Source of the DNA: Flavobacterium commune
Lineage (GTDB): Bacteria; Bacteroidota; Bacteroidia; Flavobacteriales; Flavobacteriaceae
Direction: 5' to 3'
DNA: 64,000 nt
Assembly: GCF_001857965.1 (NCBI RefSeq)
Contig: NZ_CP017774.1
Coordinates: 1,116,001 to 1,180,000 of the forward strand
Shown here: one piece after another, positions 26,055 to 33,873 of the stretch
How positions within the stretch are numbered: the first letter of the stretch is position 1
Layout of the letters: the number at the start of each line of letters is the position of its first letter
Position numbers and translations under genes: made by a program
The notes under the pieces: generated by a model
Databases searched by the model: none
What the model saw: the letters and a program-made list of their open reading frames with translations, nothing else
Told to the model about the DNA's origin: nothing

Positions 26055-26082
26055 TTGAAAAATAGCATCTTTTTTATCTTTA
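26055..26082 (+). promoter_or_regulatory. Promoter of the DUF3050 gene
   Basis: TTG at 26055-26057, a 17-bp spacer and TATCTTTA at 26075-26082, one base off TAnnTTTG, 18 bp before the ATG. The TTG has also been readable as an upstream start codon, which is therefore unlikely. Confidence 0.55.
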
Positions 26083-26099
26083 CGTCAAATTATTTCACA

Positions 26100-26882
26100 A
26101 TGAACATTCAGCATATCAACAACAGCATTAAAACCCAAAAAAGTGCATTATTAGAGCATTCACTTTACAACAAGGTAAAAACTATAGAAGATCTTCACAT
26201 TTTCTTAGAAAACCATGTTTATGCCGTTTGGGATTTCATGTCTTTATTAAAAGCCTTACAAGCCCGATTAACCTGTACCACTACCCCTTGGTTTGCCACT
26301 AGCAACCCTGAAACAAGATATTTGATAAACGAAATTGTTCTGGCTGAAGAAACTGATTTAACACTGGACGGCAGACATCAAAGTCACTACGAAATGTACC
26401 TTGAAGCCATGGAAGCCTGTGGTGCCGACACTAACAAAGTCAACACTTTTCTGTCCGAAATACAATCTTTACAAAACATATTTGTCGCTATTAAAAAAAG
26501 TGACTTACACCCCAATATTAAAGCGTTTCTGGACTTTACTTTTAGAGTAATAGAAGAAGGAAAACCCCATGAAATTGCCGCGGCATTCACTTTTGGAAGA
26601 GAAGATTTGATTCCGAGTATGTTTCATGCTATATTGAAAAATTTTCAGGAGCAATTCCCGGAAACCGATTTGAGCAAATTGATTTATTATTTCGAAAGAC
26701 ATATCGAATTAGATGCTGACGAACATGGGCCTATGGCTATGCAAATGATTACAGAGCTTTGCGAAAAAGACGCTCAAAAATGGGAAGAAGTTAAAGAAGT
26801 TTCCATTTTAGCACTCGAAAAAAGAATCGAACTCTGGAATGCCATCGAAGAAATCATCACCATGAAAGTGGAAATGGCTTAA
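26100..26882 (+). CDS. DUF3050 protein (heme-oxygenase-like fold)
   Basis: 260 residues from the ATG at 26100. A TTG 45 bp upstream is in frame but coincides with the -33 box of a promoter, and the extra residues are not conserved-looking. The sequence has the features I associate with DUF3050: HSLYNKVKTIEDLHIFLENHVYAVWDFMSLLKALQ, NEIVLAEETDLTLDGRHQSHYEMYLEAM, FTFGREDLIPSMF and YYFERHIELDADEHGPMAMQMI. These His/Glu positions resemble the helical di-metal or heme-oxygenase-like superfamily, in which several members bind two metal ions. All-helical, cytosolic, no signal peptide. The reaction is unknown. It stands alone between gcdH and an SGNH lipoprotein. Confidence 0.85.
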   Translation: MNIQHINNSIKTQKSALLEHSLYNKVKTIEDLHIFLENHVYAVWDFMSLLKALQARLTCTTTPWFATSNPETRYLINEIVLAEETDLTLDGRHQSHYEMYLEAMEACGADTNKVNTFLSEIQSLQNIFVAIKKSDLHPNIKAFLDFTFRVIEEGKPHEIAAAFTFGREDLIPSMFHAILKNFQEQFPETDLSKLIYYFERHIELDADEHGPMAMQMITELCEKDAQKWEEVKEVSILALEKRIELWNAIEEIITMKVEMA

Positions 26883-26941
26883 AAAAGCAATCCGGAATTA
26901 GATAAAAAACGTAACTACTATTAAAACTCAATTTCATACTC

Positions 26942-27691
26942 ATGAGAACGACATTAAAAATAATAGTTACGTTTTTTACTTTTGTTATAAACACAAGCTG
27001 TAGCAATGAAAACTCAATTATGGAATCTGAAATAACACCGCCGAAAACCGATTCTTCTCTACAACTCCCTACTCGACCGGAAACGATAAACTACTTAGCT
27101 CTTGGCGACAGTTACACCATTGGCCAAAGTGTATGTGAAACCTGCCGATTTCCTGAACAACTCAAACAGTCTTTAAAAAACAGTAATCTGCAAAACAATT
27201 TTTCTCTGGAAATAATTGCTCAGACAGGCTGGACAACAACTAATTTAATTTCGGCAATTGAGAACAAAAAACCAGATGCCAAATTTGATTTGGTTACCCT
27301 TTTGATAGGCGTAAACAATCAATACCAAGGAATAAATTTTAGCGTTTATGAAAAGGAATTTCCAGAATTAGTTGCTAAAGCCATTAGTCTTGTCAAAGGA
27401 AACAAAGCAAAACTGATAGTAGTTTCAATACCTGATTATGCTTATACTCCTTTTGGACAAAGCTATGGAAACCCAACTATTATTTCAACAGAAATTGACA
27501 GTTACAACGCTTTTGCAAAATCCTATTGCGAAACCAATTCGATACTCTTCATCAACATCACCGATATTACTCGCCAAGGATTAAGCAACAGTAATTTAGT
27601 TGCCAGTGATGGTCTGCATCCATCAACCGATGCCTATACCTTATTTGTACAACGCCTGCTCCCGAAAGCAATTGCGATATTACAAAACTAA
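26942..27691 (+). CDS. SGNH/GDSL hydrolase lipoprotein
   Basis: 249 residues. Lipoprotein signal with the lipid cysteine at residue 20 (FVINTSC). The SGNH blocks are visible: GDSYTIG with Ser57 as nucleophile, GWTTTNL with the block II glycine, LIGVNNQYQG with the block III asparagine, and SDGLHPS with the Asp-x-x-His pair near residue 228-231. This family hydrolyses esters, acting for example on acylated sugars, lysophospholipids or peptidoglycan O-acetyl groups; the substrate here is unknown. It lies 60 bp after the DUF3050 gene on the same strand and converges on the polyamine-type operon. Confidence 0.85.
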   Translation: MRTTLKIIVTFFTFVINTSCSNENSIMESEITPPKTDSSLQLPTRPETINYLALGDSYTIGQSVCETCRFPEQLKQSLKNSNLQNNFSLEIIAQTGWTTTNLISAIENKKPDAKFDLVTLLIGVNNQYQGINFSVYEKEFPELVAKAISLVKGNKAKLIVVSIPDYAYTPFGQSYGNPTIISTEIDSYNAFAKSYCETNSILFINITDITRQGLSNSNLVASDGLHPSTDAYTLFVQRLLPKAIAILQN

Positions 27692-27755: not shown

Positions 27756-28772
27756 CTATTTTGATTTCCATATAAACCCATCTAAAATATAGTGTGTAAA
27801 CTGAGGTACCGTTAGTAACGGAACCAGCAAAAATTGCCAATTTGAAAAATCAAAATCATACCCTGAAAATTGTTCATTCCAAACAAAAATCTCCCAAACA
27901 TATTCTTCAAAAAAAGCAATTGCGAACAAAAAAGCAATAAAAAAAAGTATTCCCTTAAGTCCTTTCACAGCATTTAAAACTCCTAAATCAACTTGTTGTT
28001 TTTTATTTATTTCATTAAGATAAATCAATGCAATATAGGGTATCCCGTGTGAAACAACGTTAAGTAATGTAAAAACCAAATCATTATTAAAATACACTAT
28101 CCCAAAATACCACGACAGAAATGTCCCTATGATAATTGCATTTTTAGGAATATTAAAATAATGGGAGTTAATACTTTTATACGCCGTTCTTACAATATAA
28201 AAAACTACTATTATCCCATAAATCCAACCCAGAATCTCCAGCAACAATTGATTCTCAAAGCGAATAAAATCTTTCTCCGTGAACCAGTTAAATGCCCTAG
28301 GTGAAGATAAAAACCAATACAACATTGGATATCCTGTTGCAGTGTAAATAATTAAATTATCAATAGCTATGCTCCAATTTGTTTTCACTTCTTTCCGAGA
28401 ATATAGACGCATAAAACCATATTGTTGTCGTATGAAGTGAAAAACTGCTATGTATGCCAAAACTGACCAAAAAAAGACATTTCCAAAACTGAATAGAATG
28501 ATTCCAATAACAAAACAAACTATAGGCAGAGTAATTAATAATTTTCTTCTTTTTTTAAACTCTTCGGCAACGAAATAAGTTTTAAATAATGTGGCATAAA
28601 CATGGGCAACATCAATAAAAACAATTAAAAAAAGCCAAGTATAAAAAGAATAATTAGCTTCAATATCTTTCAACGTTTCATGAAATAAAAAAACAATAGC
28701 CACCACAACAAATGAAGGTGCTAGAATAAAAAAACCATCTGTTTGAGGTTTATCAATCCAAGGTTGAACCAT
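27756..28772 (-). CDS. Polytopic membrane protein, last gene of the SpeD/SpeE-like operon
   Basis: 338 residues, about eight or nine membrane helices. I do not recognise the family. Conserved-looking polar residues lie within or beside helices: DVAHVYATLFKTYF (residues about 55-68), FHFIRQQYGFMRLYSRKE (about 116-133), VVSHGIPYIALIYLNE (about 245-260) and QFTHYILDGFIWK at the C-terminus. The recurring His with nearby Tyr, Arg and Asp is reminiscent of membrane oxidoreductases or acyltransferases, but this is a guess. Its ATG lies 20 bp inside the end of the flavoprotein gene, so the two are translationally coupled. It may transfer, carry or anchor the product of the upstream enzymes. Confidence 0.75.
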   Translation of the reverse strand: MVQPWIDKPQTDGFFILAPSFVVVAIVFLFHETLKDIEANYSFYTWLFLIVFIDVAHVYATLFKTYFVAEEFKKRRKLLITLPIVCFVIGIILFSFGNVFFWSVLAYIAVFHFIRQQYGFMRLYSRKEVKTNWSIAIDNLIIYTATGYPMLYWFLSSPRAFNWFTEKDFIRFENQLLLEILGWIYGIIVVFYIVRTAYKSINSHYFNIPKNAIIIGTFLSWYFGIVYFNNDLVFTLLNVVSHGIPYIALIYLNEINKKQQVDLGVLNAVKGLKGILFFIAFLFAIAFFEEYVWEIFVWNEQFSGYDFDFSNWQFLLVPLLTVPQFTHYILDGFIWKSK

Positions 28773-30378
28773 CTATAATTTGATTTACAATATTAATTCC
28801 CTGATGAAAAGCTTCTTCAAAAATTGAAATCCCGGACAAATCGGAATGTGCAAAGAAAATTTTGTTCTCGATATTTTGTGCGGCTTGTTTTTTAGCTTCA
28901 CCAAAGATAAAACCAACCACAGGGCTAATCATTCCATGCCCTAAAAGATGAATATTTATTTCCTCGGTAACTTTTTCAATATCAGGATGGGCTATTTTCA
29001 AATCATCAAAAACTAATTGTTTCCAATACGTACTTTTTTTAGAATATAAATCCTTTCTACTTTTCCTTACATCTGCAGAAGAAAAACTATGGTAATAGGT
29101 AATTACTTTTTTAGACTGCACTTGTTGCAAAGATTGATGTTGGTCATAAACATAACCTAACCCCTTTGATCCATAAATAACATTATCCCAACACAAAGGA
29201 AAACTTTCATTATCTCTTAAATCAGAAACAACCAAAGTTGCCAAAAGCCACGGAGCATAATGAAAATTTTGCGCTAACGTTTTTCCACCCTTAATTATAT
29301 ATTGATTTACAAATTGTGGTGTAGCCATAATTACTTTATCGGCAATTATCTCTATTGTTCTCTCTTCTTCTGCATCAAAAACAGTAGCAACAACTTTCCC
29401 ATCAGTAGTTTTGACTTCATAAACCAAATGATTTTTTAGCGTTTTATTTCCTGCATATTTTTGCAAATGATGGGCTAATCTGGCATTTCCTTCTGGCCAG
29501 GTAAGAACATTATCTTTAGCATCTTCTGTCGCGTCTTGCTTTCTTGCTGCGAAATAATGAATACCAGCCCAAGCGGACACATACTTAATTCCTAACCCAA
29601 AATCATCTCTACAACAATAATCTATATAATCAAATAATGGTTTAGAATTAAATCCCTCTTTCTCAAACCACTGTTCCATTGTAATAGTATCTAAAACTCG
29701 AATCGATTCTTCATTCGAAGACAATGCTAATGGAATATCAAAAAAATATTTCCCGTCAATTCCTTTTCCCGCACGAAAAGCATCCATTTTTAAAAAGAAC
29801 TTTTTAAACTGGATATCATCCTCTAAAGAATTTCCTGTTTTAGGAACCAATCCTTCCTGCCAATTGTTCCTATAAAACAACCGTTCATCAGGTGCAAAAG
29901 TGAGCTGTAGTTCATCAAATTCAGGAAAGCCTTTTGAATCATAACCCAAAATTATTTTCTCTTCTTCAAGAAATTGAAACAAAGCCTTATCCTGCTTATT
30001 AGGCAGCGGTAAATAGTGTGCCCCCAATGGAAATTTAGAATATTTATTCTCTCCATTAGAAGAATTTCCTCCCAGATGATTTTCTAATTCTATCAACAAA
30101 AAATCATCAATCCCTTTTTTAGAAAATTGACGTGCAGCGCTCAAACCCGAAATTCCTCCGCCTACAATTAAATAAGGAATATGAATTTGACTTGTCGGTT
30201 TTGGAAAATTTTTAACCCGTAACCGATGTCCTAAAATATGATTAGTTCCCGACAAACGAATAAGCAAAGTGATTACTTTTTCCTGACACGCTTGAAAAAA
30301 TGGAATCACGAGTAAGGAAGCTGCAATACTTTTCAGAAAGAAACGTCTGGAATGCTTATAATTTTCCCCACTCTTCAT
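28753..30378 (-). CDS. Tat-exported flavin amine-oxidase-like lipoprotein
   Basis: 541 residues. A twin-arginine motif SRRFFLK at 10-16 is followed by a hydrophobic run ending in FFQAC, so the protein is probably folded with FAD in the cytosol, exported by Tat and lipid-anchored at Cys31. The dinucleotide-binding motif IVGGGISGLSAARQF is at about 68-83, then the ELENHLGGNS stretch seen in flavin monoamine oxidases and related dehydrogenases; VIMATPQFVNQYI and a C-terminal FAHSDLSGISIFEEAFHQG close the FAD site. The start overlaps the spermidine-synthase-like gene by 23 bp, and the end overlaps the polytopic protein gene. Known relatives oxidise amines, including polyamines; the substrate is inferred only from the neighbours. 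Confidence 0.82.
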   Translation of the reverse strand: MKSGENYKHSRRFFLKSIAASLLVIPFFQACQEKVITLLIRLSGTNHILGHRLRVKNFPKPTSQIHIPYLIVGGGISGLSAARQFSKKGIDDFLLIELENHLGGNSSNGENKYSKFPLGAHYLPLPNKQDKALFQFLEEEKIILGYDSKGFPEFDELQLTFAPDERLFYRNNWQEGLVPKTGNSLEDDIQFKKFFLKMDAFRAGKGIDGKYFFDIPLALSSNEESIRVLDTITMEQWFEKEGFNSKPLFDYIDYCCRDDFGLGIKYVSAWAGIHYFAARKQDATEDAKDNVLTWPEGNARLAHHLQKYAGNKTLKNHLVYEVKTTDGKVVATVFDAEEERTIEIIADKVIMATPQFVNQYIIKGGKTLAQNFHYAPWLLATLVVSDLRDNESFPLCWDNVIYGSKGLGYVYDQHQSLQQVQSKKVITYYHSFSSADVRKSRKDLYSKKSTYWKQLVFDDLKIAHPDIEKVTEEINIHLLGHGMISPVVGFIFGEAKKQAAQNIENKIFFAHSDLSGISIFEEAFHQGINIVNQIIDGSTLD

Positions 30379-31873
30379 CGAAATAACGTACTAGAATTTG
30401 ATTGTCCAAACGATTAATTTCAATGTTTTTTGAAATCATATCCTTAGAAAAATAATTGAATTTATCAAACTGATAATTATAAAAACGTAACCCTTGAACT
30501 TCTCTGTTTACTTTATTAAAATTAGTTTCAAAACCATTCATAGCAATAGAGAAACCCCATTCTCCGAAAGATGGAACATAGGCGTGATAAGCATCGACTT
30601 GAGGAAAAATTTCCATTAAAGTTTTGTTGATACACCAAAAAGATTTTGGTGCAAAATAAGGAGAAGTAGTCTGTACTACCACCACTGCATCTGGAGTAAG
30701 AAGTTGTTTTAAAGTATTATAAAAACTCAAAGAATATAATTTCCCTAAACTATAATTAGATGGATCAGGAAAATCGACAATTACTACATCAAACTTGATT
30801 TCAGTGTTTTTTGCCCAAACAAAAGCATCCTTATTATAAACTTTCACTTTAGGATTATTGAGTGAATTACGATTAAAATCAGTTAAAATGGTATTCGTTT
30901 TAAACAACTGCGTCATTCCTTCATCCAAATCCACAAGAATAACATTTTTCACATCATTGTATTTTAATATCTCCCGAACAGCTAAACCATCTCCTCCACC
31001 AAGAACTAATACATTATCGACTTTCTTTGCCATTGACATTGCAGGATGCACTAACGCTTCGTGATAACGATATTCATCCAAAGAACTGAATTGAAGGTTA
31101 TTATTCAGATACAACCGATAATCACTTTTATTGTGTGTTAAAACAATTCTTTGGTATGGAGTAGAATTGGAATAAATAACATTCTCGCCATACAACTTCC
31201 CTTCCGAATACGACAAAATAGTATTCGAAAATATAAAAACAACAAACAATAAAAGAAAAGCTGCAATTGCTTTAGTACGGAGCAAATAGACCTTCTTTAG
31301 CTCTGATTTTAACAAAAAGCATAGCACGATGGCTATACTTATATTAATCATACCAAAAAACAATGAAGTTCCCATAATCCCTAATTGAGGAACTAAAACC
31401 AAAGGAAACAATATAGAGGCCAATAAAGCCCCTATATAATCAAAGGTAAATACATTAGAAACCAAATCCCTAAACTGTACTTTATCTTTAAGAATATTCA
31501 TTAATAACGGGATTTCCAATCCTACCAAACAGCCCGTTACAAAAACCAACAAGTAAAGAATAAACTGAAAAGAATACACACTTTCAAACAACAGAAAAAG
31601 CACTACTGAACTCAGCCCTCCAATCAAACCTACCAAAACTTCAATTTCAACAAAAGTGTTGAGCATATTCTTTGTCAGAAATTTTGAAAAATAAGACCCC
31701 ACTCCCATCGAAAAAAGATACACTCCAATGATGAATGAAAATTGTTTTACGGAATCCCCAAGAAGATAACTGGCTAAAGTACCTGCTACCAATTCATAAA
31801 CTAATCCACATGTTGCAATAGTAAATACCGCAAAAAGAAGTAAATATTCAAATCTTAAAAACTTCTTACCCAT
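30356..31873 (-). CDS. Membrane-fused spermidine-synthase-like aminopropyltransferase
   Basis: 505 residues from the ATG at 31873, which overlaps the DUF350 stop by 8 bp; a GTG four codons earlier is in frame but less likely. Residues 9-222 contain about seven membrane helices. The rest is a class I methyltransferase fold of the spermidine synthase type: DEYRYHEALVHPAM, GGGDGLAVREIL at about 292, the acidic DLDEGM that binds the nucleoside ribose, and the catalytic DFPDPSNYSLGKLYS at about 367. Known role of the fold: transfer of an aminopropyl group from decarboxylated AdoMet to an amine. The AdoMet decarboxylase gene lies four genes upstream in the same operon. The acceptor is unknown; the membrane part suggests a membrane-associated acceptor or product export. 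Confidence 0.85.
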   Translation of the reverse strand: MGKKFLRFEYLLLFAVFTIATCGLVYELVAGTLASYLLGDSVKQFSFIIGVYLFSMGVGSYFSKFLTKNMLNTFVEIEVLVGLIGGLSSVVLFLLFESVYSFQFILYLLVFVTGCLVGLEIPLLMNILKDKVQFRDLVSNVFTFDYIGALLASILFPLVLVPQLGIMGTSLFFGMINISIAIVLCFLLKSELKKVYLLRTKAIAAFLLLFVVFIFSNTILSYSEGKLYGENVIYSNSTPYQRIVLTHNKSDYRLYLNNNLQFSSLDEYRYHEALVHPAMSMAKKVDNVLVLGGGDGLAVREILKYNDVKNVILVDLDEGMTQLFKTNTILTDFNRNSLNNPKVKVYNKDAFVWAKNTEIKFDVVIVDFPDPSNYSLGKLYSLSFYNTLKQLLTPDAVVVVQTTSPYFAPKSFWCINKTLMEIFPQVDAYHAYVPSFGEWGFSIAMNGFETNFNKVNREVQGLRFYNYQFDKFNYFSKDMISKNIEINRLDNQILVRYFDEEWGKL

Positions 31874-32081
31874 GTATAGCTGCACTAATAATCATTGAAA
31901 TCCCAATAATAAAGGCAGCAAAAACAATGGCTACAGCAATATTATTCTTTTGAGTCACTTCTTTCCATGTATTTTCAGGAGTAAGTTTTTCAATGATAAA
32001 ATAAGCAACTAATAAAATAATGATTCCCAAAAAAGAGAAAATAAGCGAATTTAAAATTGGTTTTGACGCGATAAAATCCAT
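31866..32081 (-). CDS. DUF350 membrane protein
   Basis: 71 residues with two membrane helices (about 10-31 and 47-68). The sequence ENTWKEVTQKNNIAVAIVFAAFIIGISMII matches the DUF350 signature (E-x-x-NNIAVAI followed by a Gly-rich helix), as in E. coli YjfL. DUF350 genes often lie beside aminopropyltransferase, AdoMet decarboxylase or glutathionylspermidine-synthase-like genes, but their biochemical role is not known to me. This is a single-repeat form, half the size of many family members, so it probably dimerises. 20 bp after the small membrane peptide gene, and overlapping the next gene by 8 bp. Confidence 0.85.
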   Translation of the reverse strand: MDFIASKPILNSLIFSFLGIIILLVAYFIIEKLTPENTWKEVTQKNNIAVAIVFAAFIIGISMIISAAIHG

Positions 32082-32101
32082 GTTATGTAAGTTTATATTA
32101 T

Positions 32102-32284
32102 TTATTTATGATAAAAATGATTCACACCTCCGCGATAAGACCCAGTCGGTCTATAACTTTCGGTAGTTTCGCAGTCACACAACTGACTCCCTGATGTATT
32201 GTAATACAAGAACAAAACATAAAACAACAAACCTACTCCAAGAGAAAGATAATTGTTTTTAAAAAATTCCATTAGTTTATCCAT
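32102..32284 (-). CDS. 60-residue single-helix membrane peptide in the SpeD operon
   Basis: 60 residues. One membrane helix (residues about 11-29, YLSLGVGLLFYVLFLYY), then a 30-residue tail with Cys-x-Cys (LCDCETTES) and a Tyr/Gly/Arg-rich end (SYRPTGSYRGGVNHFYHK). The basic N-terminus suggests that the tail faces outwards. It starts 3 bp after the DUF4178 stop, so it is part of the operon and very probably real. No family recognised. The tail composition makes it a candidate substrate or scaffold for modification, though that is speculation. Confidence 0.7.
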   Translation of the reverse strand: MDKLMEFFKNNYLSLGVGLLFYVLFLYYNTSGSQLCDCETTESYRPTGSYRGGVNHFYHK

Positions 32285-32287
32285 AAT

Positions 32288-33511
32288 CTATTCGTTATTA
32301 TATGGTGAATAACTACTATCACTCCATCTTTTTATTTCAAAATTTTTCTCAAAATAGTAAACCACTATTAAAAAACCGATCATAATTATAGAAATTAGCC
32401 AAACATTCCTTGATGATGGAGCACTCCAAGTGGCTTTAACCTGAACAAAACTACTCGATCTGTCTTCTACTGCTTTAGATGGCGTTATGGTTAAATGGTA
32501 TTTACCTGCAGGCACTCCACATAAATTAAAGTTTTCGGAATTAGAACCTTCTGCCCAATTTTCTCCATCTGTGTAACCGTGATAATATTCAATATCCTTG
32601 CTCGCATATATTTCTTCTCCATTATTTTCATTAACCAAAGCCACTTGAACATTTGCCCAGGAATTATCAACTGGCGAGTATAATGAAATCGAAAGCGGAG
32701 CAGCACTGCCCTTTAAAACGAAACTTGGACTCACAAAATCTTTAACCCCATAATGATCAAAAGGTATTTGTGTATCCAGGACATCGGTCTTTATTCGGTC
32801 TTTATTTAAATACCAATTTGAAATTAAAATCAGTAATGCAACAGTACATAAAATAATGGCTAAATCCCTTAAATTAAACAAAAATGGCTGTACCAAACCA
32901 ACACCTCTTTTTGTTGGTAAAATGCTCGTTTGAAAAGCTTTCTTAATAGCTCTTTTAGAAATATGTTTTCCTAAAAAAACAGTTTGTTGCTTGCCTAATT
33001 TTTCAAAAGAAAGTAATAGTGGAGGATTTATATACTCTATCAGCTCGGATTTTTCAAAAATATCAAAATCAAAAAAACCTCTGGCGGCTAATAATTTAGG
33101 ATAACAATAATCATAACAGTCGAAGGTAATATCATTGTATTCAACAGTTGCCGGATGATTGCCAACATTTTCATCTAACGTTATTTCTTCTAAAACAATC
33201 CAATGTCCATCTGCCTCAGACAAATACAAATAATCCTCTTTGCTTTGCAAAATGTATTCTGTCCATTCAAAACCTTGATTGTCTTTTACAAGAATTCCGG
33301 TTATTATGTAGTTTTTATCATTAAAAACACCTTCTTGCCCTACCTCTAATTTTTCATCAAAAGAATAGGGTCTGAATTGATCTTTGACCTTAAACCCATC
33401 TTGGTTTTTATAAACAAAAACACAATTGGTACAAGCATAAATATTTACTTCAAAATTTAAATCAATTTGAGTAGTATGTTTGCAATTAATACAGCTAACT
33501 TCCATAAACAT
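32288..33511 (-). CDS. DUF4178 membrane protein with N-terminal zinc ribbon
   Basis: 407 residues. The ATG overlaps the speD stop (TAATG); an ATG two codons later is also possible. Residues 6-35 have CINC and CTNC about 24 residues apart, a zinc ribbon. Residues about 50-115 match the DUF4178 pattern (LEVGQEGVFNDKNYIITGIL, WTEYILQSKEDYLYLSEADGHWIVLEE); a second, weaker unit may follow. One helix near 233-252 (LAIILCTVALLILISNWYL), an extracytoplasmic beta-rich domain of about 120 residues, then a second helix near 371-390. DUF4178 is found with AdoMet decarboxylase, DUF350 and aminopropyltransferase genes in many bacteria; its function is unknown to me. Confidence 0.82.
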   Translation of the reverse strand: MFMEVSCINCKHTTQIDLNFEVNIYACTNCVFVYKNQDGFKVKDQFRPYSFDEKLEVGQEGVFNDKNYIITGILVKDNQGFEWTEYILQSKEDYLYLSEADGHWIVLEEITLDENVGNHPATVEYNDITFDCYDYCYPKLLAARGFFDFDIFEKSELIEYINPPLLLSFEKLGKQQTVFLGKHISKRAIKKAFQTSILPTKRGVGLVQPFLFNLRDLAIILCTVALLILISNWYLNKDRIKTDVLDTQIPFDHYGVKDFVSPSFVLKGSAAPLSISLYSPVDNSWANVQVALVNENNGEEIYASKDIEYYHGYTDGENWAEGSNSENFNLCGVPAGKYHLTITPSKAVEDRSSSFVQVKATWSAPSSRNVWLISIIMIGFLIVVYYFEKNFEIKRWSDSSYSPYNNE

Positions 33512-33873
33512 TACCTGTTAATTTCAAAATCTTTCAAAACAATTCCTTCAAAATAGGATATATACTGCTCTGTAACATCTTTTACTTTTTGAGTATTATC
33601 CTGAAGATAATTACACAAATAAACATCCAAAGTTAACTGATTAAATTCTGGCCAAGTGTGAATACAAATATGTGATTCTTTTAAACAAACTGAAATAGTA
33701 AAGCTACTATTATCAAAATCATGCACAATAACACCTACTTGTTCTAATCCGTATCTATTCAAAATTTTATTTGTAACAGCTATATATCCTTTGCTGTCGG
33801 TAAGTTTTTGAATATTATCAACCTGAAGAGTAACTAGCTTATGTAAACCTGGGGAATACGAATTTGAATTCAT
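33511..33873 (-). CDS. speD: S-adenosylmethionine decarboxylase (pyruvoyl type)
   Basis: 120 residues, the size of the prokaryotic class 1B enzyme. It self-cleaves before Ser67 in KESHICIHTWPE, giving the pyruvoyl group; the proton donors and acids correspond to His72 and Cys87 (DVYLCN). All three positions are present, so it looks active. Product: decarboxylated AdoMet, the aminopropyl donor. First gene of the seven-gene operon; its stop shares a base with the next start. It follows the ferredoxin gene by about 110 bp, with a strong terminator between. A weak -7 like TACATTCG lies at 33907-33914 on the minus strand. No ornithine or arginine decarboxylase gene is nearby. Confidence 0.92.
   Translation of the reverse strand: MNSNSYSPGLHKLVTLQVDNIQKLTDSKGYIAVTNKILNRYGLEQVGVIVHDFDNSSFTISVCLKESHICIHTWPEFNQLTLDVYLCNYLQDNTQKVKDVTEQYISYFEGIVLKDFEINR

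Follow-up and report, generated by a model that had tools for sequence, protein, structure and literature searches.

A membrane-fused spermidine synthase-like enzyme and an invariant C-terminal lysine: a candidate aminopropyl acceptor in a seven-gene operon of Bacteroidota

The genome of Flavobacterium commune, a single contig of 3.85 Mb, contains a compact operon in which an S-adenosylmethionine (AdoMet) decarboxylase, SpeD, stands together with a spermidine synthase-like (SpeE-like) enzyme fused to a transmembrane (TM) domain, here called TM-SpeE, and with a 60-residue membrane peptide that ends in an invariant lysine. The operon lies in a stretch of 64,000 nucleotides (contig NZ_CP017774.1, positions 1,116,001 to 1,180,000; hereafter the window, to which all coordinates refer unless a genome position is given), where a check of the open reading frames (ORFs) reveals a minus-strand block of seven genes at 27756-33873. 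They are transcribed in the order speD, DUF4178 protein, 60-residue peptide, DUF350 protein, TM-SpeE, flavoprotein and polytopic membrane protein (Table 1), and their junctions comprise four overlaps (1, 20, 23 and 20 bp) and two gaps (3 and 20 bp). This layout had been recognised in an earlier note on this DNA, made from its letters alone, and the gene identities guessed there agree with the Pfam and NCBIfam names; no Pfam family matches the last membrane protein or the 60-residue peptide. TM-SpeE starts with GTG, an ATG being found 12 bp further in.

Table 1. Features of the seven-gene operon, in order of transcription (positions in the window).
Feature	Position	Strand	Family or source
speD, class 1b S-adenosylmethionine decarboxylase, 120 aa	33511-33873	-	Pfam PF02675
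DUF4178 protein, 407 aa	32288-33511	-	Pfam PF13785
60-aa single-TM peptide, flexible tail ending ...NHFYHK-COOH, proposed aminopropyl acceptor	32102-32284	-	
Codon for the invariant C-terminal Lys60 of the 60-aa peptide	32105-32107	-	
DUF350 membrane protein of 71 aa with two TM segments (by eye)	31866-32081	-	Pfam PF03994
TM-SpeE, 509 aa: aminopropyltransferase domain fused behind seven predicted TM helices	30356-31885	-	
FAD (flavin adenine dinucleotide) amine-oxidase-like protein, 541 aa, twin-arginine-type signal, lipobox-like Cys	28753-30378	-	Pfam PF01593
Polytopic membrane protein (last gene), 338 aa	27756-28772	-	Alignment of 33 sequences

The distribution of the block was followed through TM-SpeE, which was searched for in 247 genomes sampled evenly across Bacteroidota; a SpeE-like match was found in 64 of them and a match of >300 bits along most of the length in 18. 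With 78 further loci from the best 80 matches in named genomes (Flavobacterium, Chryseobacterium, Epilithonimonas, Sphingobacterium and others), a set of 97 loci was assembled, consisting of the window and 96 others, with a few genomes counted twice. By iterated profiles, TM-SpeE is present in all 97, SpeD and DUF350 in 93 each, the DUF4178 protein in 89, the flavoprotein in 86, the peptide in 84 and the last protein in 82. All seven genes occur in 82 loci, invariably in the same order and on one strand. The earlier note had made its proposal depend on co-occurrence in other genomes, which is indeed what is found, and the seven genes are supported as a conserved unit. The full-length flavoprotein (>680 bits) was detected in 10 of the 247 genomes, exactly those in which TM-SpeE exceeds 580 bits, and it is adjacent each time, the next match reaching 49 bits; the last protein (>440 bits) accompanies it in 8 of these 10. 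Since only 5 of the 15 Flavobacterium genomes sampled, that of the window included, carry the operon, its occurrence in the genus is patchy.

Outside Bacteroidota, a search of plasmid records gave 12 records covering at least 80% of TM-SpeE, and seven loci were examined, from Gemmatirosa, Novosphingobium (two), Burkholderia, Ensifer, Tritonibacter and Alteromonas. In the annotated record of Novosphingobium ES2-1 the order is SPFH, DUF4178, DUF4178, a 48-residue protein, DUF350, TM-SpeE, FAD oxidoreductase and speD. The flavoprotein profile matches in four of the seven loci (Gemmatirosa, both Novosphingobium and Burkholderia) and gives no match in the retrieved stretches of Ensifer, Tritonibacter and Alteromonas, while the last-protein profile has no match in any of the seven. 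The flavoprotein and the last protein, whose constancy the earlier note wanted to see checked, are therefore not always found; the last protein is also missing from 4 of the 86 flavoprotein loci (L037, L115 and L117, of Sphingobacterium type, and L039).

The catalytic residues of both enzymes are intact, as had been read from the sequence. SpeD, the sole SpeD found in a search of the genome, matches Pfam AdoMet_dc (PF02675) with 66.1 bits (cut-off 25), and its Ser, His and Cys are spaced as S63, H68 and C83 of the T. maritima enzyme. The HTWP proline, a mark of true AdoMet decarboxylases according to passages of one study (PMC10407285), is also kept. Ser, His, Pro and Cys occur together in 90 of 93 loci, among them that of the window; the other three (L038, L039 and L040, divergent flavoprotein-type loci) have Ser for Cys and retain Ser, His and the HTWP or HTYP proline. 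As a side observation, the C-terminal residue of SpeD is arginine in 88 of 93 loci (codon at about 33514-33516 in the window). TM-SpeE, in which the SpeE domain follows an N-terminal multi-TM domain, matches Pfam Spermine_synth (140.4 bits, cut-off 22.9) and the NCBIfam model 'polyamine aminopropyltransferase' (PRK03612; 645.9 bits, cut-off 472), and both its SpeE motifs and its predicted fold are intact.

Among the accessory proteins, DUF4178 (PF13785, 51 bits, cut-off 25) is embedded in a layout that, beyond this domain, was recognised by eye: an N-terminal four-Cys zinc ribbon, whose C7, C10, C27 and C30 are invariant in 26 sequences, then DUF4178, a TM segment, a beta-rich domain and a second TM segment. 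Two DUF4178 genes per operon are present in L129, L133 and L042, and L129 also has an annotated SPFH-domain gene. The DUF350 protein matches PF03994 with 52.7 bits (cut-off 26). The flavoprotein matches Pfam Amino_oxidase (PF01593) with 43.3 bits (cut-off 19.8), and its profile matches a putative aminooxidase (2b9w), the polyamine oxidase FMS1, L-amino-acid oxidases, MAO and LSD1. In 30 sequences R11, F14 and the FAD-binding glycines G73, G75 and G78 are invariant and C31 is kept in at least 90%, features of a twin-arginine (Tat)-type flavin amine-oxidase-like lipoprotein with a putative role in amine oxidation. In the last membrane protein, His57, His112, His242, His327, Asp54 and Asp331 are invariant in 33 sequences, and its structure model has a predicted local distance difference test (pLDDT) score of 81.7. 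A sequence record of F. johnsoniae also contains this last gene. Distant relatives with its His motifs (HVVRQHYG and HHYFLDQFIW-like) are encoded by ORFs of 390-441 aa in L177, L178, L183 and L185; the three that were scanned had no Pfam match above cut-off, and the group may represent a broader family of His-rich membrane proteins that has no name yet.

The 60-residue peptide is conserved above all in a glycine, a CDC motif, a TE pair and the final YHK. This triplet forms the C-terminal end of all 79 distinct operon peptides, and HK ends 93 of 94 database relatives, counted from sequences alone with genomic context outside the count, the exception extending beyond FYHK. The same ending is found where the peptide is replaced. 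In L039, without a profile-found relative of the peptide, the same position is occupied by a divergent 71-residue protein ending NRYYHK, and in three Sphingobacterium-type loci, which have no peptide gene, the tail is fused to the DUF4178 protein, which gains an additional hydrophobic segment and terminates in SHK or GHK. In L042 the Lys-ended protein is 76 residues long, with PSFGK as its last residues. In five distant Bacteroidota loci (L044-L048) TM-SpeE is accompanied by a lipoprotein of about 240-254 residues with a terminal lysine after a Gly-rich stretch; relatives of the L045 lipoprotein end in lysine in 120 of the 120 matches listed, of 318 found (again from sequences, gene context aside), and 111 of these 120 have an RGG-type motif inside the last 30 residues. 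The plasmid loci have tails ending HGK (Gemmatirosa), SHK and THK (Novosphingobium), SHK (Burkholderia), SGK (Ensifer), RVK (Tritonibacter) and SGK (Alteromonas). Altogether, an anchor protein with a C-terminal lysine is present in 94 of the 97 TM-SpeE loci (84 with the peptide, three fused, L039, L042 and L044-L048) and in 7/7 plasmid loci from other phyla, against a background of 117 of 626 neighbouring genes ending in lysine. The anchors that share this residue are of several unrelated kinds.

A different terminal residue is found beside another polyamine enzyme. GSP_synth is the family of the E. coli YjfC and YgiC enzymes, named peptide--spermidine ligases in RefSeq; it is present in 18 of the 247 Bacteroidota genomes and has no match in the window's own genome. 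The tails beside GSP_synth, YjfC or YgiC were chosen by eye, and an adjacent tail protein was seen in 16 of 20 GSP_synth loci and in none of L201, L204, L205 and L206. With E. coli YjfM and YgiB they make 18 ligase-linked tails, which end in glycine (10), serine (6), alanine (1) or leucine (1), and never in lysine. Fisher's test of lysine versus non-lysine tails gives a p of about 1e-21 by locus, a value that is overly small since the loci are related, and 1e-4 when 10 and 6 anchor classes, numbers that reflect our judgement, are taken as units. A ligase is expected to need a carboxyl end, while an aminopropyltransferase needs an amine, so that in each group the last residue suits the enzyme. 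This match between enzyme type and terminal residue, which is a correlation among sequences, is the main result of the analysis.

The two groups are alike in other respects. RGGFG or RGGYG also occurs in several ligase-linked tails, and the E. coli pairs YjfM-YjfC and YgiB-YgiC resemble the window operon in combining an anchored partner with a Gly/Ser/Arg-rich tail and polyamine chemistry, YjfM also having a DUF350 neighbour (YjfL). They differ from it in that an ATP-grasp ligase takes the place of SpeE and in that the tail ends GG, whereas that of the window ends in lysine. In five loci (L198, L199, L200, L202 and L203) the neighbours of a distant GSP_synth gene are proteins of 459-472 aa with Gly/Ser/Arg-rich tails ending in G, S or L, and in four of these five DUF350 is found within the stretch.

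Several known systems share part of this gene set. A 2019 study by Li reportedly described clusters of AdoMet decarboxylase, a fusion of a major facilitator superfamily (MFS) domain with spermidine synthase, and DUF350, and is said to have proposed a polyamine-independent role of SpeD with an acceptor other than putrescine. By this account the clusters have SpeD, a membrane-fused SpeE and DUF350 in common with the window operon, which adds the DUF4178/zinc-ribbon protein, the Lys-ended peptide, the Tat-type flavoprotein and the polytopic His-rich protein. The P. aeruginosa genes PA4773-PA4775 (speD2/speE2) are said to form an envelope-linked extra SpeD/SpeE pair; set beside the window operon by this description, they are comparable in that respect and differ in their reported product, spermidine or norspermidine. 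The Thermus thermophilus triamine/agmatine aminopropyltransferase (PDB 1uir, 3anx) differs from TM-SpeE in that the matched 309-residue chain has no TM domain. More recently, operons linked to phage shock proteins (PSP), with a 7TM spermine/spermidine synthase, DUF350, DUF4178 and the lipoprotein Ctha_1186, were reported in passages of Ravi 2024 (PMC11237479), which also mention a polyamine oxidase in related operons. As far as these passages go, the operons resemble that of the window in 7TM-SpeE, DUF350 and DUF4178, the window differing by its extra polytopic His-rich protein, and the distant Bacteroidota loci with Lys-ended lipoproteins resemble the same group. PspA and CesT/Tir have no Pfam match among the seven operon genes and the two downstream ones, the rest of the genome lying outside the PspA search. 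The combination of SpeD, membrane SpeE and DUF350 is thus a known kind, on the strength of what the 2019 study reportedly described and of the passages of Ravi 2024, and the operon almost certainly belongs to this class as its Bacteroidota version. What the present analysis adds is the terminal-residue pattern and the block with flavoprotein and last protein; no description of the pattern was found in a literature search, most subscription papers being outside its coverage.

The reading that we favour, tentatively and at somewhat short of even confidence, is that the C-terminal lysine of the 60-residue peptide is the aminopropyl acceptor of TM-SpeE. SpeD would produce decarboxylated AdoMet (dcAdoMet), and TM-SpeE would pass its aminopropyl group to the side-chain amine of the lysine rather than to free putrescine, the lysine being a plausible acceptor because its -(CH2)4-NH2 arm resembles putrescine. 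The anchored tail would thereby acquire a polyamine-like end, and this end may be oxidised, trimmed or used outside the cytosol by the last membrane protein and the exported flavoprotein. While the gene set, its conservation, the catalytic residues, the predicted SpeE fold and the link between terminal lysine and enzyme type come directly from the analysis, the lysine modification, the sequence of events and the functions given to the flavoprotein, DUF350, DUF4178 and the last protein are inferred. The earlier note had proposed aminopropyl chemistry at the membrane followed by an oxidation outside the cytosol; the enzymes do point there, although the idea of a non-putrescine acceptor was already in print and the terminal lysine had been missed.

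Several observations weigh against this proposal. TM-SpeE is not strictly tied to a terminal lysine, given that L041 and L043 combine it with GSP_synth and with a tail that ends RSYGG; the third locus without the lysine, L049, has a SpeE-like protein of another type (849 residues). Furthermore, four DUF350 loci (L148 and L158-L160), which gave no match to TM-SpeE or GSP_synth within the short stretch retrieved, have an adjacent protein that ends AK or KK and lacks a Gly/Ser-rich tail. Most of the tail proteins were recognised by eye, and the tail of the Burkholderia locus (L131) was first found by a search demanding a terminal lysine. A search free of that demand gave a single candidate in each of L128-L132, always with lysine at its end and identical to the earlier one. 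In L133, however, it picked a different, overlapping frame and in L134 it gave no candidate, the tail proteins of these two loci having appeared in an earlier unfiltered view. The match of SpeD to its NCBIfam model, 59 bits, falls under the cut-off of 75.65. Finally, an invariant C-terminus can also be compatible with docking or recognition.

A further difficulty concerns the compartment. The tails look extracytosolic, on a by-eye reading of their charge pattern and lipoprotein signals, but dcAdoMet is a cytosolic product; either the enzyme would have to act before export, or the SpeE domain would have to lie outside, in which case dcAdoMet must cross the membrane. In 35 sequences the mean number of K+R per TM-SpeE loop, with helix limits that we drew from hydropathy, is 2.5 (N-terminus), 0.7, 2.4, 0.1, 3.1, 0.4, 4.3 and 1.1. 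Seven helices with this pattern of K/R-rich loops would put the SpeE domain on the extracytosolic side, together with the tails and the flavoprotein, which is weak evidence; in the structure model residues 134-187 form one unbroken helix, leaving the helix count open. Modification before export is the simpler of the two options.

The best-surviving alternative, possible but less likely, is that the aminopropyl group goes from TM-SpeE to a membrane lipid or to some small molecule of the envelope and that the Lys-ended peptide is a docking, sensing or chaperone subunit whose C-terminus is kept for binding. The predicted TM helices put the enzyme near lipids, the DUF350 protein, the DUF4178 protein and the last protein resemble membrane proteins, and passages of Ravi 2024 tie such operons to membrane dynamics; TM-SpeE without a terminal lysine (L041, L043) and Lys-ended DUF350 neighbours without TM-SpeE fit as well. 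Nevertheless, a lipid acceptor leaves unexplained both the contrast between lysine beside TM-SpeE and Gly, Ser, Ala or Leu beside the relative of a peptide-amine ligase, and the common last residue of dissimilar anchors. It is improbable, instead, that the terminal lysine hosts another covalent step, such as linkage to an envelope polymer or oxidation by the flavoprotein to a cross-linking aldehyde, and that aminopropylation takes place elsewhere: the flavoprotein has an export signal, its FAD region resembles polyamine oxidase, MAO and LSD1, and in the 247 genomes it occurs at full length solely beside this type of TM-SpeE, but the terminal lysine is equally constant where no flavoprotein was found in the retrieved stretch (L042, L044-L048, L132-L134). 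An ordinary spermidine or norspermidine pathway with a membrane-bound synthase, although in keeping with the NCBIfam label and with the intact SpeE motifs and fold, is very improbable, since free spermidine has no need of five other genes, the genome holds a separate decarboxylase and deoxyhypusine-synthase-like pair, and such fusions reportedly, in the 2019 study by Li, fail to complement a speE deletion, with spermidine absent.

The host's polyamine supply is consistent with lysine as the acceptor. An ordinary SpeD-SpeE cluster would have a soluble SpeE and a putrescine source, a combination that the operon lacks. The observation that no ornithine, arginine or carboxynorspermidine gene lies nearby holds locally; in the genome, however, a 464-residue pyridoxal phosphate (PLP) Orn/Arg-type decarboxylase (PF02784, 47.2 bits, under the cut-off of the speA model) adjoins a deoxyhypusine-synthase-like gene (PF01916, 145.2 bits) at 3.441-3.444 Mb, about 2.3 Mb from the operon, while NspC has no match in the genome. 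This pair is probably the host's own, homospermidine-type route, so the cell's polyamine supply need not depend on the operon, which in all likelihood, as had been supposed, is not the sole source of polyamines.

A defence role, which had been left among the possibilities, finds no support. A PADLOC scan of the operon for defence systems gave no gene-set match, but only a match of TM-SpeE to mad2 (65.7 bits, residues 285-431) and, at the level of noise, weak matches between the DUF350 protein and Csx27 (E 0.022) and between the flavoprotein and a model for a desaturase (E 0.024). On the other strand, just past the operon (26055-27691), lie genes for a DUF3050/haem-oxygenase-like protein and for a GDSL-lipase-like protein with a lipoprotein-like start.

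The proposal bears on what is acted upon by membrane-fused spermidine synthases and by the AdoMet decarboxylases called 'polyamine-independent', of which the 2019 study by Li reportedly counted thousands of genes. With aminopropylation of the lysine as a starting point, a general 'polyamine-ended tail' device can be envisaged, in tentative terms: an anchored Gly/Ser/Arg-rich tail whose last residue is matched to the neighbouring enzyme, TM-SpeE aminopropylating a C-terminal lysine directly and a GspS-type ligase joining a polyamine in amide linkage to the carboxylate of a C-terminal glycine or serine. In the window operon, the SpeE domain may even work outside the cytosol, on dcAdoMet delivered by its own transporter-like TM half, with the Tat-type flavoprotein as a possible eraser or activator; the DUF350 loci L148 and L158-L160 may be further candidates for such a device. 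The contrast between Lys and Gly/Ser would unite two separately described operon groups in one proposed chemistry, and the fact that one invariant residue ends a 60-residue peptide makes the acceptor idea simple to check by mass spectrometry. If true, it would represent a protein-bound polyamine modification in bacteria, akin in kind to eukaryotic hypusine.

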